A stretch of 64,000 nt of DNA. It comes from Halarcobacter sp. GTDB taxonomy: Bacteria; Campylobacterota; Campylobacteria; Campylobacterales; Arcobacteraceae. Position numbers and translations under genes: made by a program. The notes under the pieces were generated by a model. That model saw only the letters and a list, made by a program, of their open reading frames with translations, was not told the DNA's origin and did no database searches. Of the stretch, positions 1-11,193 are shown piece by piece; the first letter of the stretch is position 1, and the number at the start of each line of letters is the position of its first letter. The stretch is taken from positions 682,001-746,000 of the forward strand of contig NZ_OY781470.1 in assembly GCF_963676935.1 (NCBI RefSeq), written 5' to 3'.

Positions 1-638
1 TTTATGATGAATATCATGCTTATGAAAATTATAGGGTAATTGTAGAAAAATTTGGAAGTCAGACACCTTTTATAAATATATTACAAGCTGAAATAAATCA
101 TTATGAAGAGTTAACTGTTTTATTAAATAAATATCAAGTTCCTGCCCCATTAAATGATTGGGTTATTAAAGTTGAAACACCTAATTCTATTTTAGAAGCA
201 TCTGAAGTTGGTGTTGCTGAAGAGATTGATAATATTAAAATGTATGATAACTTAATCACTTATGCTAAAGATTATCCTGATGTATTGGATTTATTATATA
301 GACTTCAAGCTGCATCTTATAATAATCATCTACCTGCATTAAGACAAGCAGTTGCGAAACATTCAAATTTAAATATAAATGAAGTAGATGTAAATACGAT
401 CCATCAAGAAAATAGTATTCATAACATTGATGAAGCTATTAGTAAAATGGATGAAATCAGTGCTATGGCATCTAAGTTTTCTACAGGAAATGTAAGTCAA
501 GAAGATATTTTAAAACTTTTAAGTAATTCTAATCTTTCTTTTGTTGGTGGTGCTTTATTAGGTGCTGTAGGTGCTGGAGTATTTTCTCAAGTAACTAAAG
601 ATAAAAAAGAAAATACTACAGAAGAAGAGGAGGTTTAA
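1..638 (+). CDS. Ferritin-like DUF2202 protein with C-terminal membrane helix (5' end outside window)
   Basis: The reading frame is open from base 3, so the start lies to the left of the window and 211 residues are visible. The visible part starts inside a ferritin-like helix with DEYHAY, followed by a second helix with EINHYEE; these E-x-x-H pairs fit the di-iron ligands of DUF2202 proteins. A third helix (LLYRLQAASYNNH) completes the usual DUF2202 ending. After about 60 hydrophilic residues comes a glycine-rich membrane segment (GGALLGAVGAGVF) and a charged tail. DUF2202 proteins are normally soluble, so this helix is unusual. It matches the glycine-rich helices of the small genes that follow within a few bases. 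A role in iron handling at a membrane is inferred from the cluster. Internal ATG codons such as the one at 240 are not the start. Confidence 0.8.
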   Translation, partial: YDEYHAYENYRVIVEKFGSQTPFINILQAEINHYEELTVLLNKYQVPAPLNDWVIKVETPNSILEASEVGVAEEIDNIKMYDNLITYAKDYPDVLDLLYRLQAASYNNHLPALRQAVAKHSNLNINEVDVNTIHQENSIHNIDEAISKMDEISAMASKFSTGNVSQEDILKLLSNSNLSFVGGALLGAVGAGVFSQVTKDKKENTTEEEEV

Positions 639-639
639 T

Positions 640-732
640 ATGCCATTTATACCTTTTGCACTTGGTGCACTTATTGGTGGGTCAGTAGTTGTGTTGTTTT
701 CAAAAACTAAAAAAACTAAAAAGGAGAAATAA
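640..732 (+). CDS. 30-residue membrane peptide
   Basis: ATG at 640 lies one base after the previous stop and is preceded by a strong ribosome binding site (GAGGAGG, 628-634). The product is a proline/glycine-containing hydrophobic helix (MPFIPFALGALIGGSVVVLF) followed by a very basic tail of lysines and threonines. The stop at 730-732 overlaps the next ATG by one base (TAATG), which suggests translational coupling. The same layout, one glycine-rich helix then a charged tail, recurs in the neighbouring genes. No homology can be claimed at this length, but spacing, binding site and overlap support a real gene. Confidence 0.65.
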   Translation: MPFIPFALGALIGGSVVVLFSKTKKTKKEK

Positions 733-983
733 TGTTACCTTTCATTGCTGGAGTTGCAGCTGGTGCTGTAGCTGTTGTTGCGTACAACAATAATAAAGAG
801 ATTAGAAAAAGTGTAAATAGTGGAGCTAAAAAAGCAAAACAATTTGCTGAAGAGGGCTTTGAAAAAACAAAAGAGCTTACAAAAGATGTAAAAGCAACTG
901 TAAGTGAAAAAGTTGAATCAATCAAATCAAAGAAAAAAGAAGAGACAACAGAAGAAAAGGGAGAAATAATTAATGACAACTAA
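732..983 (+). CDS. Small membrane protein with charged helical tail
   Basis: 83 residues. Residues 2-17 form an alanine/glycine-rich membrane helix (FIAGVAAGAVAVVAY). The rest is a long lysine/glutamate-rich amphipathic region that resembles YtxH-like or apolipoprotein-like helices and could lie along a membrane or filament. The ATG overlaps the upstream stop by one base, with a GGAG binding site at 723-726, and the 3' end overlaps the next gene by 11 bases. It is part of the P-type ATPase cluster. Proteins of this kind (one glycine-rich helix plus a charged tail) accompany P1B-6 ATPases in iron-organelle clusters; that link is inference from context. Confidence 0.75.
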   Translation: MLPFIAGVAAGAVAVVAYNNNKEIRKSVNSGAKKAKQFAEEGFEKTKELTKDVKATVSEKVESIKSKKKEETTEEKGEIINDN

Positions 984-1326
984 TTTAGCGATTGATACAG
1001 GTGCACCAAGAAACGTAACTGGTCATGTAGTAAGTGGTTCACTTGCTGCTGGTGCATTAGCTGCAGGAATAAATTATAATAAATATAAAAAAGGTCAGAT
1101 TGGAAAAAATGAGGCTATTCAAGACTCATTAAAACTTTCAATTCAAGGTGGAATTGTTACAGGAAGTTCTATTGCAGTAGCTAATTATGTTGGAGAAGGA
1201 AGTTATATGAAAATGTTAACTGCTCTTTCTATTGGTATGGCAGGAGTTTATGCAGTAGAAAAAATTAATGAAAAGCTTACTCCTAGATTTAAAGAAGAGA
1301 TTATTGAAGAAGAGGAAGAAAAATAA
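973..1326 (+). CDS. Glycine-rich two-helix membrane protein
   Basis: 117 residues. Two alanine/glycine-rich hydrophobic stretches are visible, about residues 17-33 (VVSGSLAAGALAAGI) and 55-70 (IQGGIVTGSSIAVAN), and a third weaker one at 80-95. The C-terminus ends in a run of glutamates. The start overlaps the upstream gene by 11 bases, and the stop shares one base with the next ATG. No named family is recognised with certainty. Helix packing through small residues and the acidic tail recall magnetosome and ferrosome membrane proteins, where acidic tails are thought to bind iron. That role is inferred only from context. Confidence 0.75.
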   Translation: MTTNLAIDTGAPRNVTGHVVSGSLAAGALAAGINYNKYKKGQIGKNEAIQDSLKLSIQGGIVTGSSIAVANYVGEGSYMKMLTALSIGMAGVYAVEKINEKLTPRFKEEIIEEEEEK

Positions 1327-1664
1327 TGGTTGATAATACAAATAATACAATAAATGCAAATCCATACATTACTCAAACAAGTCAAACAGCAAATACTCAA
1401 CAAGCACAGGATGTTAATTTAGTAAATCAAAATCCATATATTGATAATAGTGCCAATAGTAGTTTATTAGGTTCTTTTGATACAAATAAGTTTTTAATGG
1501 GTGCTGTTGTAGGAGCTCTTGGTGCATATATTTTAACTAATGAAAATGCTCAAAAAGCTATTTTTAAAACAATTGCAAAAGGAAGTACTCTTTTTAGTGC
1601 TGGTATTGAAGAGATGAAAGAAAGATTTGAAGATGCCAAAGCTGAAATGGAAGCACAAGATTAA
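1326..1664 (+). CDS. Asn/Gln-rich single-helix membrane protein with NPYI repeats
   Basis: 112 residues. The first 50 are polar and rich in Asn, Gln and Thr, with the motif NPYI occurring twice (residues 12-15 and 36-39). A membrane helix follows at about 55-70 (KFLMGAVVGALGAYIL). The tail is amphipathic and charged (EEMKERFEDAKAEMEAQD). The helix-plus-tail part resembles the DUF6110/YtxH-like small proteins found next to P1B-type ATPases. The ATG shares one base with the upstream stop, and the ATPase gene follows after 8 bases. The polar N-terminal half could be a protein-protein interaction segment. Function unknown. Confidence 0.75.
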   Translation: MVDNTNNTINANPYITQTSQTANTQQAQDVNLVNQNPYIDNSANSSLLGSFDTNKFLMGAVVGALGAYILTNENAQKAIFKTIAKGSTLFSAGIEEMKERFEDAKAEMEAQD

Positions 1665-1672
1665 GAGATAAA

Positions 1673-3784
1673 ATGAGTCAAAACAATATAAAACTTTTAC
1701 ATAAAACTCAAAAAAGAGTTAGATTTTATTTAGAAGAATTAAAAAAAGAGGATTTTAATATTTCATCTTTAGTTCAATATTTGCAATCTATTGATGGTAT
1801 TAATAGTGTAAGGGTTAATAAAAAAATTGGTTCTATTGTTTTTGAACATGATGGAAAAGCTTTAGACACTATAGAGGATTTATTAATAAAACTTGATTTA
1901 GCTAGATATAAAGTTTGTGATACTTTTTTAAGTGATTGTGTAGATTGCGTAGGTGAAGAAAAACCGAGTTTAAATGGAGTTTTAAGAGCTAGTACTGCTT
2001 TAGGTGCAGAAAGATTTATTGATAATGATATAGCCAAATTTGCAATTACTTCATATGCTTCAAAACCTTTACTTATAGAAGGAGCAAAAGAGCTCTTTAC
2101 AGAAGGACTTACTTCTAAAGTGTTAGAAGCAACAGCAGTTGGTGTTAGTATTGCTAGAAAAGATTATTTTGCTGCAAATAGTACTAACGCAATGTTGGAA
2201 TTAGGCGAATATATAGAAGAGACCACTGTTCATAAAAGTGATGATTTAATCAAAGAATTAGCAAAACCAAATGTTAAAAAAGCTTGGATAGAAGTTGAAG
2301 AAAATGGAAAAGCTGTACAAAAACTTGTAGATTCTGCACAAATTAAAATTGGTGATATTGTTATTGTTGGAGCAGGGGATACTATTGCAATTGATGGACA
2401 TATCATTGCCGGTACAGCTTCAGTTAATCAAGTATCGATGACAGGTGAGAGTGAACCTGTTACAAAACAAAGAGGTGGCAGAGTTATCTCAGGAACTGTT
2501 GTTGAAGAGGGAAGACTTAAAATTTGGGCAGAATATGTAGGCGAGGATACTGCAACTGCTAGAATTAAAAACTATATTGCTTCATCTTTAAATGAAAAAT
2601 CAGCAGTTGGTTTAAAAGCAACAAAACTTGCCGATAAGCTTGTCCCTGTTACTTTAGGTTTAGCTGGAGTTTCATATTTTATTAATAAAGATTTTGAAAG
2701 TGTAGCTGCTGTACTTCAAGCTGATTATTCTTGTGCTTTAAAACTTGCAACTCCTGTTGCTTTTAAATCATCTATTTCAAAAGCTGGAAAAGATGGAATT
2801 ATGATAAAGGGTGCTAAGTCAATAGAAGCACTTAACAATGCAGACACTTTTGTTTTTGATAAAACAGGAACTTTAACTTATGGAGAACTTGAAGTTGAAT
2901 CAATAAGCTCTTTTGATAAAAATTGGCTTGAAGAGGATATTCTAAATCTTACAGCTAGTGCCGAAGAACACTATTTTCATCCTGTTGCAGAGGCTGTTGT
3001 AAAAGCTGCAAGAGAAAAAGGGTTTGTTCATATGCACCATGAAGAGGTTGAGTTTATAGTTGCCCATGGTGTAAAAACTATTGTAAATGATAAAGAGGTT
3101 GTTATTGGAAGTAGACACTTTTTAGAGGATGATGAAAAAATAGATTTTTCTAAATATGAAGAAAAAATTGAAGAGTGCTTATTAGATGGTAAAACTTTAT
3201 TATATGTGGGATATGACAAAAAACTCCTTGGTACAATAGGGATGAGAGATAAAGTAAGAGAAAATGCAAAAGAGACTTTAGAAAAACTTAGAACTCTTGG
3301 AGCAAAAAAGCTAGTTATGCTTACAGGTGATATTCAAGAAAAAGCAGATGTTTTAGCTAAAGAATTAGGTATTGATGTTGTATTTGCAAATATGAGACCT
3401 ACTGGTAAAGCAGATGTTGTTAAAAAATTAAAAGATGAAGGTGCTAATGTTGCTTTTGTTGGAGATGGTATAAATGATGCTCCTGCACTTATGAGTGCAA
3501 ATGTAGGTATAAGTATGAGTAAGGGTGCAGATATTGCAAAAGCTACTGCTGATATAGGTCTTTTGATTGATGATATATCAGCTATTTCAGATGTAAAAGA
3601 GTTAGCAAATAAAACTATGAAACTTATAAATTATAATTTTGCTGCTACAGTTGGAATTAATAGTTTGATTTTAACTGGAGCAACAGTAGGTTTATTTTCT
3701 CCTGTAACAACTGCATTTTTACATAATGGAACAACAATAGGTTTATTACTTAATTCAATGAAAGGAGTAAATGTAAAAAAATAG
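1673..3784 (+). CDS. P1B-type metal ATPase, probable ferrosome iron pump (FezB-like, P1B-6)
   Basis: 703 residues with a full P-type ATPase core: TGES (actuator domain, T257), phosphorylation site DKTGT (D396), the HP of the nucleotide-binding domain (H436-P437), TGD and GDGINDAP (G597). The membrane metal-site motif is YSCALKLATP (C354) instead of CPCALGLATP. This loss of the first Cys and the Pro points to the P1B-6 group, the type that loads iron into ferrosomes. Residues about 8-65 resemble a degenerate HMA domain without a CxxC. The membrane segments before the actuator domain are weak and short compared with CopA, again as in this subgroup. It lies in an operon with small glycine-rich membrane proteins, the layout of fez clusters. 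Direction and metal are inferred; a Cu/Zn pump is less likely given the missing ligands. Confidence 0.8.
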   Translation: MSQNNIKLLHKTQKRVRFYLEELKKEDFNISSLVQYLQSIDGINSVRVNKKIGSIVFEHDGKALDTIEDLLIKLDLARYKVCDTFLSDCVDCVGEEKPSLNGVLRASTALGAERFIDNDIAKFAITSYASKPLLIEGAKELFTEGLTSKVLEATAVGVSIARKDYFAANSTNAMLELGEYIEETTVHKSDDLIKELAKPNVKKAWIEVEENGKAVQKLVDSAQIKIGDIVIVGAGDTIAIDGHIIAGTASVNQVSMTGESEPVTKQRGGRVISGTVVEEGRLKIWAEYVGEDTATARIKNYIASSLNEKSAVGLKATKLADKLVPVTLGLAGVSYFINKDFESVAAVLQADYSCALKLATPVAFKSSISKAGKDGIMIKGAKSIEALNNADTFVFDKTGTLTYGELEVESISSFDKNWLEEDILNLTASAEEHYFHPVAEAVVKAAREKGFVHMHHEEVEFIVAHGVKTIVNDKEVVIGSRHFLEDDEKIDFSKYEEKIEECLLDGKTLLYVGYDKKLLGTIGMRDKVRENAKETLEKLRTLGAKKLVMLTGDIQEKADVLAKELGIDVVFANMRPTGKADVVKKLKDEGANVAFVGDGINDAPALMSANVGISMSKGADIAKATADIGLLIDDISAISDVKELANKTMKLINYNFAATVGINSLILTGATVGLFSPVTTAFLHNGTTIGLLLNSMKGVNVKK

Positions 3785-3803
3785 TTTTACATTTAAAATA
3801 TAT

Positions 3804-4472
3804 ATGGAAAAACAAGATATAACTATAGAAGAAAAAAAGCCTCTTTTACCAAGAATTGAGATTGATTTAGATACTAAAAAAGAGATAGCAAAAATCGGCA
3901 TGACAGCCACAATGGGAATAACCGTTGCGACATCAATGTATATGAAAAATAAATTTATGAAAAGACTTCATGTTGTTGCTGGTGTAGCTTTAGTGGGGTT
4001 TTCTTATTGGCATCATACCTTATATCAACCAACAAAGAAAAAATCTAAAAATATTAATACTCAAAAAGAAACAATAATTTCAAAAAAAGATGAAATTATA
4101 GAAGAGCTTAATGAAGATAGTTTCGCAATATCTTTAAATAACTTTTTTGTTGAATTAGCAATAAAGGGTAATCTAACCCATGTAGAATTTAAATCATTTC
4201 AAGAAAAAATAGAGACTTTATTGGATACTTATGAAGTTCCATCTATAAATATCTTACTTGACATTACTCAAATAGAAGGTGTTGAGTTAAAGGCTTTATG
4301 GGATGATTTAACTTTTACTATGAAGCATATAAAAGAGTTAAATAAAATTGCTATTGTTGGTAATAATAAACTTGAAGAGTATTCTGTACATTTAGTTGAT
4401 AAAGTATTCTCTTTTGATTTAGAGTATTTTGAAGAATATGATAAAGCTAAAACTTGGCTTTTAAATAGTTAG
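3804..4472 (+). CDS. Membrane protein with C-terminal SpoIIAA-like (STAS) domain
   Basis: 222 residues. Residues 1-25 are polar. Two short hydrophobic stretches at about 30-45 and 55-70 (VVAGVALVGFSYWHH) are followed by a lysine-rich linker. Residues about 105-222 match the SpoIIAA-like fold (PF11964 type): NILLDITQIEGVELKALWDD is typical of that family's core strand and helix. Stand-alone SpoIIAA-like proteins are soluble and poorly understood; fusion to a membrane part is not common. The gene follows the ATPase by 19 bases and ends the operon, with a strong hairpin just downstream. A structural or lipid-associated role in the same compartment is possible but not shown. Confidence 0.7.
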   Translation: MEKQDITIEEKKPLLPRIEIDLDTKKEIAKIGMTATMGITVATSMYMKNKFMKRLHVVAGVALVGFSYWHHTLYQPTKKKSKNINTQKETIISKKDEIIEELNEDSFAISLNNFFVELAIKGNLTHVEFKSFQEKIETLLDTYEVPSINILLDITQIEGVELKALWDDLTFTMKHIKELNKIAIVGNNKLEEYSVHLVDKVFSFDLEYFEEYDKAKTWLLNS

Positions 4473-4483
4473 AGTTAGTAGTC

Positions 4484-4519
4484 TTAAATACTAAAGGTGC
4501 TTTAGCCTTTAGTATTTAA
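4484..4519 (+). terminator. Hairpin ending the ferrosome-like operon
   Basis: Perfect 14-bp inverted repeat (arms 4484-4497 and 4506-4519, core CTAAAGG/CCTTTAG) with an 8-base loop, 12 bases after the last stop. There is only a weak T-run, but position and stem strength fit a terminator. Confidence 0.7.
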
Positions 4520-4579
4520 TTGTATTTTACCAAACTTCCTGAAAATAAAAAGAATAAAAATCATCTTTTTTAAACTCTC

Positions 4580-4609
4580 TTATAACTAAACTATTTTTAA
4601 TAGTTATAA
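4580..4609. promoter_or_regulatory. Inverted repeat in the copA promoter, probable operator
   Basis: TTATAACTA and TAGTTATAA form perfect 9-bp arms around a 12-base spacer, and the spacer makes a second overlapping palindrome (AACTATT-TTT-AATAGTT). It sits just upstream of a TATAAT (4622-4627), about 40 bases before the copA ATG, where a copper-responsive repressor or activator would bind. The regulator is not in the window. Confidence 0.5.
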
Positions 4610-4621
4610 CTTTAAAAAGTG

Positions 4622-4627
4622 TATAAT
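4622..4627 (+). promoter_or_regulatory. -10 element of copA
   Basis: TATAAT preceded by GTG, 38 bases upstream of the copA ATG. No good TTGACA lies at -35, which is usual in Campylobacterota. Confidence 0.45.
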
Positions 4628-4665
4628 CGTTTTTTTAATAAAACAAAAACCAAAAAGGTTTTAAT

Positions 4666-6993
4666 ATGGATTACAATTTATCAATAAAAGGTATGACTTG
4701 TGCAGCTTGCTCAGGTAGAATAGAAAAACTTTTAAATAAAAATGAAGAGATACAAGAAGCTAATGTAAATCTTACAACAAACAAAGCTTTCTTTAAAAGC
4801 GATGAAAAACTAGATTTAGACCCAATTATAGAAAAAATTGAAAAATATGGTTTTGAAGTGGAAAAAGAAAAAATCGAATTTGATATTAGTGGTATGAGTT
4901 GCTCAGCTTGCTCTAGTAGGATAGAAAAACAAGTAGCAAAAATGGATGGGGTAGTTGAATCAAATGTAAATCTTACTACAAATAAGGGAACTTTTACTAT
5001 TTTAAAAGGCTTACAAACTAGTGATTCAATTATAAAAAGAATAGAAAAACTAGGCTTTAGTGCAAAAGAGGCTAAAGGTGTTGAGTTAAATAATAACGAT
5101 GAAGAGTTAAAAGAGAAAAAGATTAAACTGATTATCTCTGCTATATTTAGTATTCCTATGCTTTTAGGGATGTTTGATATGATATTTTCATTGAGTATTA
5201 TTCCCGATTTTTTCTCAAATGGATATTTTCAACTTCTTTTAGCAACTGTTGTTCAGTTTTATTGTGGAGCACAATTTTATAAAGGTGCGTATGCAAACCT
5301 AACACACTTTAGTGCAAATATGGATGTACTAGTAGCTATGGGGACAAGTGCAGCGTATATCTTCTCTATTTATAATATAACAACAGGTGGACACTTATAT
5401 TTTGAGACTTCAGCAGTTTTAATTACTCTTATTTTATTGGGTAAATATTTAGAACAAAGAGCAAAATCTAAAACAAGTGAAGCTATTTCAAAACTTTTAA
5501 ATCTAAGTCCTAAAAAAGCAAATGTAATAAGAGATGAAAAAGAGATTACAATAACTACTAATGAGGTTTTAAAAGGTGATATTATTTTAGTAAAGCCAGG
5601 TGAAAAGATACCTGTTGATGGAGTTGTTATTGAAGGGGAAAGTTATATTGATGAATCTATGGTTACAGGGGAGAGTAAGCCCGTAAAAAAAATTATAGAA
5701 AATAGTGTTATTGGTGGAACAATTAATGGAAATTCAACATTTAAATATAAAGCTACAAAATTAGGTGATGAGAGTTTTCTCTCCCAAATAGTAAAAGTGG
5801 TAGAGCAAGCCCAAGGAAGTAAAGCTTCTATCCAAAGATTTGCAGATGTTATCTCAGGTTATTTTGTACCAACAGTTATAGTAATAGCTTTTTTAGTGTT
5901 TTTATATTGGAACTTTTTAGCAAAAGATACCACTTTTGAAACTGCTATTATAAATATGGTTGCAGTTTTAGTTATAGCTTGCCCGTGTGCTTTGGGACTT
6001 GCAACTCCAACTTCTATTATGGTTGGAAGTGGAAAAGGGGCACAAAATGGAATACTTTTTAAAGGTGGGGAACACCTTGAAAATATGCAAAAAGTTGATA
6101 CAGTAGTTTTTGATAAAACAGGAACAATAACTCTTGGAAAACCAAGTGTAACAAAGGTTTTGGCAAAAGATGAAAATAGAGTTTTACAATTAGCCGCATC
6201 CATTGAAAAACATTCAGAACATCCTTTAGGAAAAGCAATTACAGAGTTTTTTGAAGGAAAACTTTTAGAGGTTAAAAATGTAGAAGCTATTACGGGCTTA
6301 GGGATTAAAGGCGAAATTGATTCCAAAGAGATTTTAGTTGGTTCAAAAAAATTTATTGAACAAAATATTAAAATAGAAAATGATGAGATAAAAGATGAAG
6401 TTGGTTCACTTATTTATGTGGCTTATGATAACTTTTATGAGGGAGTTATTGTAGTTGCAGATGAGATTAAAGCAGATACAAAACAAGCAATACAAAATCT
6501 TAAAGATTTAGGAATTGATGTATATATGTTAACAGGAGACAATGAAAAAACTGCTTTACATATTGCAAAACAAGTAGGTATTGAACATGTTTTTGCAGAG
6601 GTTTTACCAACACAAAAAAGTGAAAAAGTAAAACAACTTCAAGAGAAAGGAGCTTTTGTTGCAATGGTTGGTGATGGGATAAATGATGCACCGGCACTTG
6701 CAGTTGCAAATATTGGAATTGCCATTGGTAGTGGAACTGATATTGCCATAGAAGCCTCTGATGTAACTTTACTTCAAGGTGATATTACAAGTGTTTCAAA
6801 AGCGATAAATCTTAGTAGAAAAACTATGGCAAATATAAAACAAAACCTGTTTTGGGCATTGATTTATAATATAATAGGTATTCCAATTGCAGCAGCAGGA
6901 TTACTTAATCCTATAGTTGCAGGAACTGCTATGGCATTTAGTTCAGTATCTGTTGTAACAAATGCTTTAAGATTAAAACAAACAAAATTATAA
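4666..6993 (+). CDS. copA: Copper-exporting P1B-1 ATPase CopA
   Basis: 775 residues. Pumps Cu(I) out of the cytoplasm using ATP. Two N-terminal HMA domains carry GMTCAAC (C12, C15) and GMSCSAC (C79, C82). Eight hydrophobic segments surround the actuator (TGES), the membrane copper site CPC (C439, C441, in CPCALGLATP), the phosphorylated Asp483 in DKTGT, the HP motif and GDGINDAP. Length and layout are those of standard bacterial CopA. It has its own promoter after the preceding terminator, and a copZ-type chaperone follows after 13 bases. Comparison with the P-type ATPase just upstream is useful: this one keeps every canonical copper ligand, the other does not. Confidence 0.95.
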   Translation: MDYNLSIKGMTCAACSGRIEKLLNKNEEIQEANVNLTTNKAFFKSDEKLDLDPIIEKIEKYGFEVEKEKIEFDISGMSCSACSSRIEKQVAKMDGVVESNVNLTTNKGTFTILKGLQTSDSIIKRIEKLGFSAKEAKGVELNNNDEELKEKKIKLIISAIFSIPMLLGMFDMIFSLSIIPDFFSNGYFQLLLATVVQFYCGAQFYKGAYANLTHFSANMDVLVAMGTSAAYIFSIYNITTGGHLYFETSAVLITLILLGKYLEQRAKSKTSEAISKLLNLSPKKANVIRDEKEITITTNEVLKGDIILVKPGEKIPVDGVVIEGESYIDESMVTGESKPVKKIIENSVIGGTINGNSTFKYKATKLGDESFLSQIVKVVEQAQGSKASIQRFADVISGYFVPTVIVIAFLVFLYWNFLAKDTTFETAIINMVAVLVIACPCALGLATPTSIMVGSGKGAQNGILFKGGEHLENMQKVDTVVFDKTGTITLGKPSVTKVLAKDENRVLQLAASIEKHSEHPLGKAITEFFEGKLLEVKNVEAITGLGIKGEIDSKEILVGSKKFIEQNIKIENDEIKDEVGSLIYVAYDNFYEGVIVVADEIKADTKQAIQNLKDLGIDVYMLTGDNEKTALHIAKQVGIEHVFAEVLPTQKSEKVKQLQEKGAFVAMVGDGINDAPALAVANIGIAIGSGTDIAIEASDVTLLQGDITSVSKAINLSRKTMANIKQNLFWALIYNIIGIPIAAAGLLNPIVAGTAMAFSSVSVVTNALRLKQTKL

Positions 6994-7006
6994 ATAAGGA
7001 GATTTT

Positions 7007-7216
7007 ATGAAAGAATTAGAAATTGGTGTAAATGGTATGAATTGTGGTCATTGTAAAATGGCTGTTGAAAATGAATTAAAAGATTTATCTGGTGTAAGTA
7101 ATGCAGAGGTTAGTTTAGAAGAAAAAAAAGTAACTGTAAGTTTAGAAGATGAATCTTTATCTGTTGATAAACTTTATGAAGCTATTGAAGAAGCAGGATT
7201 TGAACCTGTAAAATAG
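7007..7216 (+). CDS. copZ: CopZ-like copper chaperone
   Basis: 69-residue single HMA domain with the metal-binding motif GMNCGHC (C13, C16). Proteins of this size bind Cu(I) in the cytoplasm and hand it to CopA. The gene lies 13 bases after copA with a good TAAGGAG binding site, so the two are co-transcribed. The His in the CxxC spacer (GHC) is common in the CopZ/ZntA-type chaperone group; context favours copper. Confidence 0.9.
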   Translation: MKELEIGVNGMNCGHCKMAVENELKDLSGVSNAEVSLEEKKVTVSLEDESLSVDKLYEAIEEAGFEPVK

Positions 7217-7223
7217 TTTTATA

Positions 7224-7249
7224 AAAAAGCAGCTATTATGCTGCTTTTT
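7224..7249. terminator. Bidirectional terminator between copZ and hcp
   Basis: AAAAAGCAGC and GCTGCTTTTT form a 10-bp stem with a 6-base loop, flanked by A and T runs on both sides. It overlaps the last codons of the convergent hcp gene. Confidence 0.8.
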
Positions 7250-8561
7250 CAATAAGAAGTTTTTTTAGATCCTCTTTTGCATCACCTGTTAAGTGAAGGT
7301 TGAAATTTTCAACTAAGAAGTTAAATATATCTTCATTTACAAATTGTGGTGGTTTTGGTCCTAGGTAAATATCTTTTATACCTAAAGAGAATAGGGCTAA
7401 AAGAATAATAACAGCTTTTTGCTCCATCCAAGAAAGTACAATAGATATAGGTAGATCATTTATAGGAGTATTTAAAGCCGAGCTTACTGCTTTTGCAATC
7501 TCTACTGCGCCATTTGAATCATTACATTGTCCTAAGTCTAAATATCTAGGGATACCAGTACCTTCTATTTCCCCAAAATCTATGTCATTGAATCTAAATT
7601 TACCACAACTTGAAGTTATAATCACACAATCTTCTGGTAAATTTTCAACTAGTTCTCTATAATAATTTCCGGCACTTCCTGGTGCATCACATCCTGCAAC
7701 TACAAAAAATTGTCTTATTTTTCCCTCTTCTACTGCTTTTAAGATTTGTGGCGCAAGTGTTAAAATAGTTTTATAGTGATGACCTGTTGTTAGAGTAAGA
7801 TTCTCTTGCATATTTGTATCTTCACATTGTAAAGTTTTTTCTATTAGTTCATCAAAGTTATCATCAACTATTGCTGTACCACCTTCAATACCCACAATTT
7901 TGTATGTGAATACTCTATCAACATATGTTGCACTTTTTTTAGGTGGTACAATACAGTTTGTACTAACAACAAAAGTTCCTTTGAATTTTTCCATTAGTTT
8001 TGCTTGGTCAAACCATGCTTTTCCTACATTTCCTCTTAGGTGGGGATATTTTTTTAATTCAGGATATCCATGGGCTGGAAGCATCTCTGAGTGAGTATAT
8101 ATATTTATACCTTTGTCTTGCGTAGCTATAAGAAGTTTTTCTAACATATCTAAGTTGTGACCTGTAACTAATATAGCTTTACCCTCAACCACATTTTGAC
8201 TAACTTTCACAGGACTTGGAATACCAAACTTATTTGTGTGTGCATTTGATAACTTATCCATAACTTCTACCCCAGCACTTCCCACTTTCATAAGTTGGTT
8301 TATATGATCATTAAAATTAAAATTCACATTTGTAAGTGTAAAATATAAAGTTTCACTAATAATATCATCTACATTTTTAGTTTGATTTGGTTTTAGTTCA
8401 TTTAAATGCTCTCTATATGCACTTAATCCCTTTAGTCCAAAAATCATAATATCTTGAAGTCTAGCAAGGTTTTCATCTTTTCCACATGTTCCAGTTGTTG
8501 CGCCTGTAGAACCACAGCCATTTGGAGCACTCATTTCACATTGATAACAAAACATACTCAT
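7236..8561 (-). CDS. hcp: Hybrid-cluster protein / hydroxylamine reductase (short form)
   Basis: 441 residues, about 100 fewer than class I and II Hcp. The N-terminus has the proximal-cluster cysteines in a C-x2-C-x7-C-x9-C spacing (C5, C8, C16, C26). Hybrid-cluster motifs follow: THSEMLPAHGYP, a TNC motif, GCDAPG and SSCGKFR. The missing segment is the second helical bundle after the first cysteines, as in class III Hcp. The family reduces hydroxylamine and nitric oxide in the cytoplasm and protects against nitrosative stress; in E. coli it also transfers NO to protein thiols. No hcr reductase gene is adjacent. A perfect FNR-type box lies 58-71 bases before the ATG, which fits anaerobic or NO-dependent induction. 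Single-gene transcript, convergent with copAZ. Confidence 0.92.
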   Translation of the reverse strand: MSMFCYQCEMSAPNGCGSTGATTGTCGKDENLARLQDIMIFGLKGLSAYREHLNELKPNQTKNVDDIISETLYFTLTNVNFNFNDHINQLMKVGSAGVEVMDKLSNAHTNKFGIPSPVKVSQNVVEGKAILVTGHNLDMLEKLLIATQDKGINIYTHSEMLPAHGYPELKKYPHLRGNVGKAWFDQAKLMEKFKGTFVVSTNCIVPPKKSATYVDRVFTYKIVGIEGGTAIVDDNFDELIEKTLQCEDTNMQENLTLTTGHHYKTILTLAPQILKAVEEGKIRQFFVVAGCDAPGSAGNYYRELVENLPEDCVIITSSCGKFRFNDIDFGEIEGTGIPRYLDLGQCNDSNGAVEIAKAVSSALNTPINDLPISIVLSWMEQKAVIILLALFSLGIKDIYLGPKPPQFVNEDIFNFLVENFNLHLTGDAKEDLKKLLIEKAA

Positions 8562-8618
8562 AAAATTCCTTTATTCTAAATTGAGTTGAAATACTATATG
8601 AAATAGGTATATGTTTCA

Positions 8619-8632
8619 TTGATTTAAATCAA
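8619..8632. promoter_or_regulatory. FNR/NNR-type box upstream of hcp
   Basis: TTGATTTAAATCAA, a perfect match to the TTGAT-N4-ATCAA consensus of CRP/FNR-family regulators. It is centred 64 bases before the hcp ATG, compatible with class II activation at about -41.5. Confidence 0.75.
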
Positions 8633-8724
8633 TAATACTATTACAGTACTATCTTAATGTATAATTGTAATGGTTATTTAAGTTATTATATTTAATAATC
8701 ATAATAAATTAATATAGGAAAAAG

Positions 8725-11193
8725 ATGGCAAAAAAATTTCTCCAACAAGTTTTATCATTACATTTCATTAAATTTTCTTTAATTCCAATTTTAGTAGTTG
8801 AGGTCGCTTTATTAATACTTTACTTTTCAATAAATGCATATATTTCATCAAAAAATACAAATTTGCTATTAAATGAAGCACAATCACATGTAAAAGATAT
8901 CTTATCTAATGAAGTAGAACTTATAGAAGATAAATTAAATGAAGTTTCAATGATGGCAAAACTATTGCAAAATGAACATCAAGTACTATTTAAAAATCTT
9001 AAAAATAATAGATTGCCAAATGGAAAACCTAGTTTTGATGTTGCACCAAATGGAGTTTTTTATAAAACCAATAAAGTTGGTTCAAGTGTTTATTATTCTG
9101 CACAAACAAAAATAGATGAAAAAGCAATAGAAAAAGCAACTTTTACAGAAGCAATGGATACTAGTTTTAAAAGTATTACAGAGATAAATCCTATTATTGT
9201 TGCGGCATACTTTAATAGTTGGGACAATATGAATAGACTTTATCCTTTTATTGATAAAGTTTATGAACAGTATGGTCCACATATTCAAATGCAAGATTAC
9301 AATTTTTACTATTTAGCTGATTTAAAACACAACCCTAAAAAAGAACCAGTTTGGACTGGTGCTTATCTTGATCCAGCAGGAAATGGTTGGATGCTTTCTT
9401 GTATTGTTCCTATTTATAATGGTGATTTTTTAGAAGGTGTTACAGGATTAGATATAACAATTGATAGTTTTATAAAAAATATTTTAAATACAAAACTAGT
9501 TTATAATGCAAAATTTTTCATGCTTAGTAAAGATGGTATGATAATTGCCATGCCAGAAAAAATAGAGAATCTTTTGGGATTAAAAGAGTTAAAAGAACAT
9601 CTTTATACAGATAAGATTTTGAAAACAATAGAAAAGCCTGAAGAGTTTAATATATTAAAAAATAAATCTCCATTTGCGTCACATTTTAAAAATCTTATAG
9701 AAAATAATTTAGAATTAGATTCCCTAAAAATTAAAGATGATGAATATTTAACGCTACAACAATCTGTTAAAGAAACAGATTGGAAATTGATGGTTTTAAT
9801 TGATAAAAAAGAGATTTTTAATTCAATTGAAAATTTAAAAGAGTTATCAAATCAGATTGGATATTTAGCAATAGGATTTTTACTTTTGTTTTATGTAGTT
9901 TTCTTTTATATGCTTTTAAAAAGAATAAATAAGTTTTCAAAAGTTATCACTGAGCCAATCATTAAATTATCAGATCAAACTTCAGAGATTAAATCTACAG
10001 ATTTCAAAATTGAACTTATAAAAACTGATATTAGAGAAATAGAACAACTAAATCAAAACTTTACGAGTATGATGAATGAGTTAAATGATAGTACGAGAAA
10101 ACTTTATGAGGCAAAAGAGTTAGCTGAAGAATTATCAAGAGCAAAAGATGATTTCTTGGCGAATATGAGTCATGAATTAAAAACTCCATTAAATTCAATT
10201 AATGTAATTAGTGAATTGATGAGAAACAATAATACTGGTAATTTAGACCAAAAACAAGTAAAAAGTTTAGAGATAATTAATAAATGTGGTAAAGACCTAC
10301 TATATCTAATAAATGATGTACTTGATATCTCAAAACTAGAGGCTGGACAAATTGAACTTGATTATACAACTTTAGATGTAAAAGAGTTAATGGAAACAAT
10401 AAATGATATGTTTAGCTCACAAGCTGAAGAAAAAGGGATAAATCTTAGTTTAGAAATAGATAAAAGTTTAAATTTTATTTATAGTGATGAATCTAGGATT
10501 AAACAGATAGTAAAAAATTTATTATCTAATTCTTTAAAGTTTACTCCAAAAGATAAAAATATTATATTTAAAGTAAAAGATGAAGATAAATTTATTAAAA
10601 TCATAATTGAGGATGAAGGGGTAGGGATACCTCAAGATAAATTAGAACACATTTTTGATAGATTTAAACAAGTTGATACAAGTATTACACGACAATATGG
10701 TGGTACTGGACTTGGACTTGCTATATGTAAAGATCTTTTGATACTTTTAGATGGAGAAATAAAAGTTTCTAGTGAAGTGGGAAGTGGTAGTAGATTTGAA
10801 GTTCTAATACCTAAAAATGAAGATAAAATAGATGAGGTATTTAAAAAGAATTTTGAACTAAAAGATATCTCTAAAAGTGAAAAATTAAAAGATAAAATCT
10901 TAGTTTATAATAGTGATCCTGTAAGTTTTATGCATCATATTATGGAAATAAAAAAACATTTTGAAACCTCTTTTACAACAATTTTAGATGAGCTTATAAA
11001 AAAATATGAAAAAGAGACCTCAAAAGTGTTAATTGAAGAAAAAAATTTAACTCAAAATGATATAGATAAAATTTCAAGTAATATACGAAAAGAGGATTTA
11101 ATTGTTATTGTAGAAGATAATGAAGATTCTAAACTTAAAAACTTTGCAGATAAAACAATAAAAAAGAGTTTTAATATAGAAGATTTATATTAA
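8725..11193 (+). CDS. Membrane sensor histidine kinase with periplasmic Cache domain
   Basis: 822 residues. A membrane helix at about 15-37 and another at about 378-398 bracket a large periplasmic region of the double-Cache type (DPAGNGWMLSCIVPIYNGDF and TGLDITID are typical Cache strands). A HAMP-like linker is followed by HisKA with phospho-acceptor H483 in NMSHELKTP and a HATPase domain with DEGVGIP and GGTGLGLAI. The last ~100 residues (from KDKILVYNSDP) look like a receiver domain without a convincing phospho-Asp. Cache domains usually bind small carboxylates or amino acids. No response regulator gene is adjacent. The BCCT transporter gene downstream is separated by 181 bases and has its own promoter region, so a link is possible but unproven. 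Confidence 0.85.
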   Translation: MAKKFLQQVLSLHFIKFSLIPILVVEVALLILYFSINAYISSKNTNLLLNEAQSHVKDILSNEVELIEDKLNEVSMMAKLLQNEHQVLFKNLKNNRLPNGKPSFDVAPNGVFYKTNKVGSSVYYSAQTKIDEKAIEKATFTEAMDTSFKSITEINPIIVAAYFNSWDNMNRLYPFIDKVYEQYGPHIQMQDYNFYYLADLKHNPKKEPVWTGAYLDPAGNGWMLSCIVPIYNGDFLEGVTGLDITIDSFIKNILNTKLVYNAKFFMLSKDGMIIAMPEKIENLLGLKELKEHLYTDKILKTIEKPEEFNILKNKSPFASHFKNLIENNLELDSLKIKDDEYLTLQQSVKETDWKLMVLIDKKEIFNSIENLKELSNQIGYLAIGFLLLFYVVFFYMLLKRINKFSKVITEPIIKLSDQTSEIKSTDFKIELIKTDIREIEQLNQNFTSMMNELNDSTRKLYEAKELAEELSRAKDDFLANMSHELKTPLNSINVISELMRNNNTGNLDQKQVKSLEIINKCGKDLLYLINDVLDISKLEAGQIELDYTTLDVKELMETINDMFSSQAEEKGINLSLEIDKSLNFIYSDESRIKQIVKNLLSNSLKFTPKDKNIIFKVKDEDKFIKIIIEDEGVGIPQDKLEHIFDRFKQVDTSITRQYGGTGLGLAICKDLLILLDGEIKVSSEVGSGSRFEVLIPKNEDKIDEVFKKNFELKDISKSEKLKDKILVYNSDPVSFMHHIMEIKKHFETSFTTILDELIKKYEKETSKVLIEEKNLTQNDIDKISSNIRKEDLIVIVEDNEDSKLKNFADKTIKKSFNIEDLY

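Follow-up and report, generated by a model that had tools for sequence, protein, structure and literature searches.

Ferrosome (fez) gene clusters, as described in Desulfovibrio magneticus, Rhodopseudomonas palustris and Clostridioides difficile, encode a P1B-type ATPase, a DUF4405-like haem protein and small membrane proteins. The haem-binding ferrosome protein is FezC (PMC11334425), and roles in ferrosomes have been described for both FezC and FezB (PMC11334425, PMC12574912). A second point of reference is the free-standing DUF2202 protein (PF09968; MJ0754, PDB 3q4n/3q4r), which has a ferritin-like bundle, five ligand positions and a serine in the fourth helix. The stretch of DNA analysed here (the window, 64,000 nucleotides from a 3.1-Mb, Arcobacteraceae-type genome of Halarcobacter sp.) opens inside an operon that has the three kinds of component found in fez clusters and differs from them in that a DUF2202 protein with a tail anchor and a MamC-like protein are regular members. 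We propose, with a probability of roughly 60%, that the DUF2202 protein is a tail-anchored, ferritin-like accessory of a Campylobacterota ferrosome (fez-type) operon, the organelle itself being one whose presence we infer. No mention of DUF2202 was found in the open-access papers searched, and an earlier description within a fez cluster is possible.

Operon members and links to iron

The order of the operon, read from upstream, is a CPC-motif P1B ATPase (in some genomes), an HMA_2 protein, the DUF2202 protein with its transmembrane helix, a 30-aa peptide, a YtxH-like protein, a MamC-like protein, a 112-aa protein, a SCALK-motif ATPase and a FezC-like protein. The features in and just upstream of the window are listed below (window position equals L001 position minus 10000).

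L001:7329-9482, before window position 1: an additional P1B ATPase with a CPC motif, heading the operon
3..638, + strand: 3' part (aa 48-258) of the DUF2202 ferritin-like tail-anchored protein, from its ORF, tblastn, the family profile and a homologue model
534..590, + strand: glycine-zipper membrane helix of the DUF2202 protein, about LSFVGGALLGAVGAGVFSQ, from the sequence, with G230 and G234 conserved
640..732, + strand: 30-aa glycine-zipper peptide MPFIPFALGALIGGSVVVLFSKTKKTKKEK, an ORF with a counterpart at this position in each of the four closest relatives
732..983, + strand: YtxH-like small membrane protein, 83 aa
973..1326, + strand: MamC-like membrane protein, 117 aa, below the NCBIfam NF038051 cut-off
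1326..1664, + strand: 112-aa protein with a glycine-zipper helix, conserved in the operon
1673..3784, + strand: P1B-type ATPase (FezB-like) with an N-terminal HMA_2 domain and the motif ADYSCALKLATP
3804..4472, + strand: two-helix FezC/DUF4405-like domain, with H56 and H70 invariant, joined to a SpoIIAA-like domain

The CPC ATPase is present in the closest relatives and at several Sulfurospirillum, Sulfurovum and Campylobacteraceae loci, and is missing in most Arcobacteraceae. An Rfam scan of window positions 1-9000 returned no match.

The ATPase within the window combines an HMA_2/Arg-rich N-terminus with an ADYSCALK motif, of which SCALK was kept in all 115 of the ATPases used, and this motif together with its context suggests that the protein may be the P1B-6 ATPase FezB. 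DUF4405 was matched by 23 of 24 FezC-like members, albeit weakly (best E 0.0017, the FezC-like protein of the window falling below the curated cut-off), and H56 and H70 were invariant. The fusion to a SpoIIAA-like domain occurs in three of these 24 aligned proteins (those of the window and two Sulfurospirillum loci); elsewhere the FezC-like domain stands alone. In the neighbouring MamC-like family, 34 of 37 members matched the model of the magnetosome protein MamC (NF038051, best E 3e-8), but below its cut-off; the member in the window scored 33 bits where the curated threshold is 100. The structural model of the MamC-like protein is helical and confident (pLDDT 88) and gave no significant match in a fold search of the PDB, a result that says nothing on kinship with MamC. 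The sister zipper proteins in the window did not match MamC, and no magnetosome genes were seen beside the MamC-like gene at this locus. The operon regularly includes a MamC-like gene across Campylobacterota.

The divergent neighbour operon encodes an imelysin, a di-haem oxidoreductase and a second imelysin, and the 242-base intergenic region that the two operons share (L001:7086-7328) contains three Fur-box-like sites by consensus match, whereas dinucleotide shuffles of the region averaged 0.05 and none of 3000 reached three. These observations bear on a reading in which the operon is not a ferrosome operon but an envelope efflux system for another metal, to which the ferritin-like protein would bind. 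The ATPase sequence does not fix its metal, and MJ0754 was crystallised with Zn2+ (3q4r), but the FezC-like and MamC-like proteins, the iron-related neighbour operon and the Fur-like sites all indicate iron, and we consider efflux of another metal very improbable.

A ferritin-like domain with a membrane tail

The full DUF2202 gene encodes 258 aa (L001:9862-10638) and starts 139 bases 5' of the window, leaving 47 aa outside it. In the protein, a ferritin-like domain (residues ~37-166) is followed by a linker, then by a glycine-zipper membrane helix FVGGALLGAVGAGVFSQV and finally by a short, charged C-terminal tail. Both C-terminal elements that had been claimed for it, GGALLGAVGAGVF and an acidic tail, are present, the tail reading ...KENTTEEEEV, and G230 and G234 of the membrane helix are kept in nearly all of the relatives aligned.

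Membership of the window protein in PF09968 is established through its family and not by its own score, which was 13.5 bits against a cut-off of 22; a search of its own genome with the Pfam model likewise gave no match, a false negative of that model. When used as a tblastn query, the window protein recovered proteins annotated as DUF2202 at E values of 1e-10 to 1e-42, and 47 of 55 aligned relatives matched PF09968 (27.9 bits for the first member). The family profile also matched the solved DUF2202-like protein MJ0754 (E 2e-6); the profile was needed, as phmmer with the window protein against the PDB found no real match. Because part of the window protein lies outside the window, we modelled a full-length homologue instead (L061, 50% identical), for which AlphaFold2 predicted a ferritin-like four-helix bundle with pLDDT ~97 in the bundle. 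MJ0754 was the top Foldseek match of this model, and MJ0754, bacterioferritin and nigerythrin all scored at Z ~16. A search of viral contigs found no relative.

Together, the family profile, the homologue model and the zipper helix bear out the proposal of the preliminary description that a ferritin-like DUF2202 domain is tethered to the membrane. The accompanying statement that DUF2202 proteins are normally soluble is only partly right, in that many of the free ones have, on inspection, an N-terminal export signal. The free proteins further differ from the fused ones in lacking the C-terminal membrane helix (a zipper tail was found in 0 of 16 free-standing genes, 13 from named genomes and three from plasmids), and none of those sampled lay in the operon. 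A free, tailless gene on a Methylotuvimicrobium plasmid (NC_016108.1) sits directly 5' of feoB and a cation P-type ATPase (L003:2726-7804), an arrangement that is another link of DUF2202 to iron transport.

All five canonical di-iron positions (E50, E77, H80, E121 and H156, numbered as in the window protein and assigned as ligands by the E, ExxH, E, H pattern of ferritin-like proteins) carry the expected residue in the window protein, so the concern that E/H ligands might be missing does not hold for this protein. A serine replaces the fourth-helix glutamate of canonical ferritins, both here and in the free DUF2202 proteins. The five ligands were invariant among 55 fused and free proteins, a sample biased toward intact proteins because the NNH stretch was part of the patterns searched for. 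With a profile search, which carries less of this bias, all five were found in 23 of 24 strong free-standing matches.

Recurrence of the fused gene

A match to the fused protein was found in 64 of 104 Arcobacteraceae genomes and was nearly always full-length, including the tail, which argues that the fusion is not due to chance. An initial set of 22 loci (the window genome, 20 relatives and one plasmid) shared one core operon order, except that two contigs showed no FezC-like gene within reach. Among 62 loci from named genomes, 49 lay in the operon, and all 49 encoded a C-terminal zipper helix, that of one locus (L089) being only weakly hydrophobic. The neighbours at these 49 loci were an HMA_2 protein and small membrane proteins, most often of the MamC-like and YtxH-like kinds, with a SCALK-motif P1B ATPase wherever the contig reaches and a FezC/DUF4405-like cytochrome in most. 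The operon loci are related by descent, so these counts are not independent. Named hosts include Arcobacter, Sulfurospirillum, Sulfurimonas, Sulfurovum, Hydrogenimonas, Helicobacter and Campylobacter.

Outside Campylobacterota the fused protein is hardly found. Among 1056 genomes of three other large clades, the match extended into the tail in one genome only, a Burkholderiaceae metagenome-assembled genome (MAG) whose cluster is the most distant (L100) and contains the HMA_2 protein, the 112-aa type and the ATPase, with the MamC-like gene not recognised. The operon also turns up in a few MAGs with the labels Gammaproteobacteria, Desulfurellales or Desulfosporosinus, for which misbinning or mislabelling is possible. 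The fusion thus recurs beside other P1B-type ATPases, which disposes of the objection that it might be peculiar to one genome, and the suggestion that the locus marks a new branch of the system gains support in the form of a distinct Campylobacterota branch of ferrosome-type operons.

A plasmid of Arcobacter sp. AZ-2023 (CP134847.1) also carries the operon (L002:8678-13152), and genes for TonB receptors and a Tn3 transposase lie close to it; there the N-terminal domain of the ATPase and its remainder are separate ORFs.

Ligand loss, gene absence and the role of the anchored protein

In a profile search across the class, 132 of 397 Campylobacteria genomes gave a match, and many of the syntenic orthologues had lost ligands while keeping the tail (Helicobacteraceae and Campylobacteraceae labels in the genome search were assigned from close relatives). 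Among 99 non-redundant operons, 63 had all five ligands, compared with the 23 of 24 strong free DUF2202 matches, and 36 lacked at least one. A tree built from the SCALK-motif ATPase only required eight changes, seven of them forced by well supported branches, or nine if only losses are allowed, and the tail and operon were retained in every one of these 7–9 lineages of ligand loss. Some losses affect a single residue (TEHEH, EKHEH), so a metal-free state is not proven in every case. One change spans a Campylobacteraceae clade in which all 29 members of the type have K or R at position 77, G or A at 80 and Y at 156, with E50 and E121 unchanged; the helix B alignment is less certain in this degenerate set, but the ExxH pattern is missing under any register. 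The possibility that the degenerate proteins are not orthologues was rejected, as profile comparison joined a degenerate set to the family with 99.7% probability (E 2e-25) over 202 columns that include the tail.

The gene itself can also be absent. Of the 397 Campylobacteria genomes, 130 have a MamC-like gene, 125 with the fused DUF2202 gene and five without, and apparently none of the 397 has the fused gene without the MamC-like one; seven further genomes gave only DUF2202 matches that end before the tail. In the five operons without DUF2202, the HMA_2 gene is followed by the YtxH-like gene, and the MamC-like gene, the ATPase and the rest are retained. The repeated ligand loss and these five absences disfavour an essential iron-oxidising role, and the idea that the protein couples iron oxidation to storage fails as a general mechanism, although such coupling may operate in the window organism, where the ligands are intact. 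Across the phylum, the iron chemistry of the anchored protein looks optional rather than central.

How might the protein then act? The missing export signal and the C-terminal anchor suggest that the domain probably faces the cytosol and not the organelle lumen; N-terminal hydrophobicity is low in nearly all members, and the charges flanking the membrane helix (mean K+R 1.6 before, 2.0 after) leave the topology undecided. The ferritin-like domain would then sit on the ferrosome membrane, most likely on the cytosolic face where the ATPase takes up its substrate, and its glycine-zipper helix could pack against the remaining small zipper proteins encoded beside it. In the window organism, the five intact ligands make it most likely that the domain binds Fe(II) in a di-iron site by the FezB-like ATPase, buffering or oxidising it, whereas degenerate members would keep only a surface or scaffold role; since many relatives retain just the fold, the anchor and the place in the operon, the minimal role appears structural. 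Judged from its residues, the protein is thus likely metal-active in the window organism and a scaffold or remnant elsewhere. The anchored protein offers a concrete candidate for Fe(II)/Fe(III) conversion in ferrosomes, one that is a regular operon member in relatives of Arcobacter, Sulfurospirillum, Helicobacter and Campylobacter.

The losses could be taken further, to a reading in which the bundle serves solely to coat the organelle membrane or as an adaptor there, and the Arcobacter-type metal site is an ancestral leftover of little importance. Ligands lost eight to nine times with tail and operon kept would fit such a scaffold, as would the higher identity of helix D (0.65) and the membrane helix (0.56) than of helices A–C (0.33–0.44) in the Campylobacteraceae set. 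We nonetheless think it unlikely, as 63 of 99 non-redundant members, among them all Arcobacteraceae members examined, retain the five ligands at an overall identity of 40–50%, which implies selection on the metal site in intact members. Less probable still is a rubrerythrin-like guard clearing H2O2 or O2 around iron-loaded membranes. Rubrerythrin was matched by 29 of the 55 aligned relatives, nigerythrin is among the best structural matches, and loss in Campylobacter and Helicobacter lines would fit their low-oxygen lives, but the operon showed neither a rubredoxin domain nor an obvious redox partner. We know of no peroxidase role for DUF2202 proteins.

For the accessory that we favour, metal-active in some lineages and structural in others, a parallel exists in mammalian ferritin, in which E62K/H65G swaps H-ferritin residues for those of L-ferritin and abolishes ferroxidase activity (PMC6929972). 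The Campylobacteraceae replacements of E77 by K/R and H80 by G/A resemble this H-to-L change, although the bacterial form differs from L-ferritin in its membrane anchor, the additional H156-to-Y replacement and its independent origin, and the cage is not part of the likeness. By analogy, anchored ferritins on organelle membranes might come in two forms, an H-like, metal-active one and a repeatedly arisen L-like one (Lys/Arg plus Gly/Ala) that nucleates mineral or scaffolds without oxidising, a generalisation we regard as doubtful. The parallel makes the purpose of a ferritin without ferroxidase activity testable in bacteria, where orthologues with active sites, orthologues with dead sites and operons lacking the gene occur naturally and can be compared directly.

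In three of the five operons that lack DUF2202, the MamC-like and 112-aa proteins are encoded as one ORF of ~175 aa:

L246:3862-4389: fused MamC-like/112-aa ORF
L247:4551-5081: fused MamC-like/112-aa ORF
L248:4325-4846: fused MamC-like/112-aa ORF
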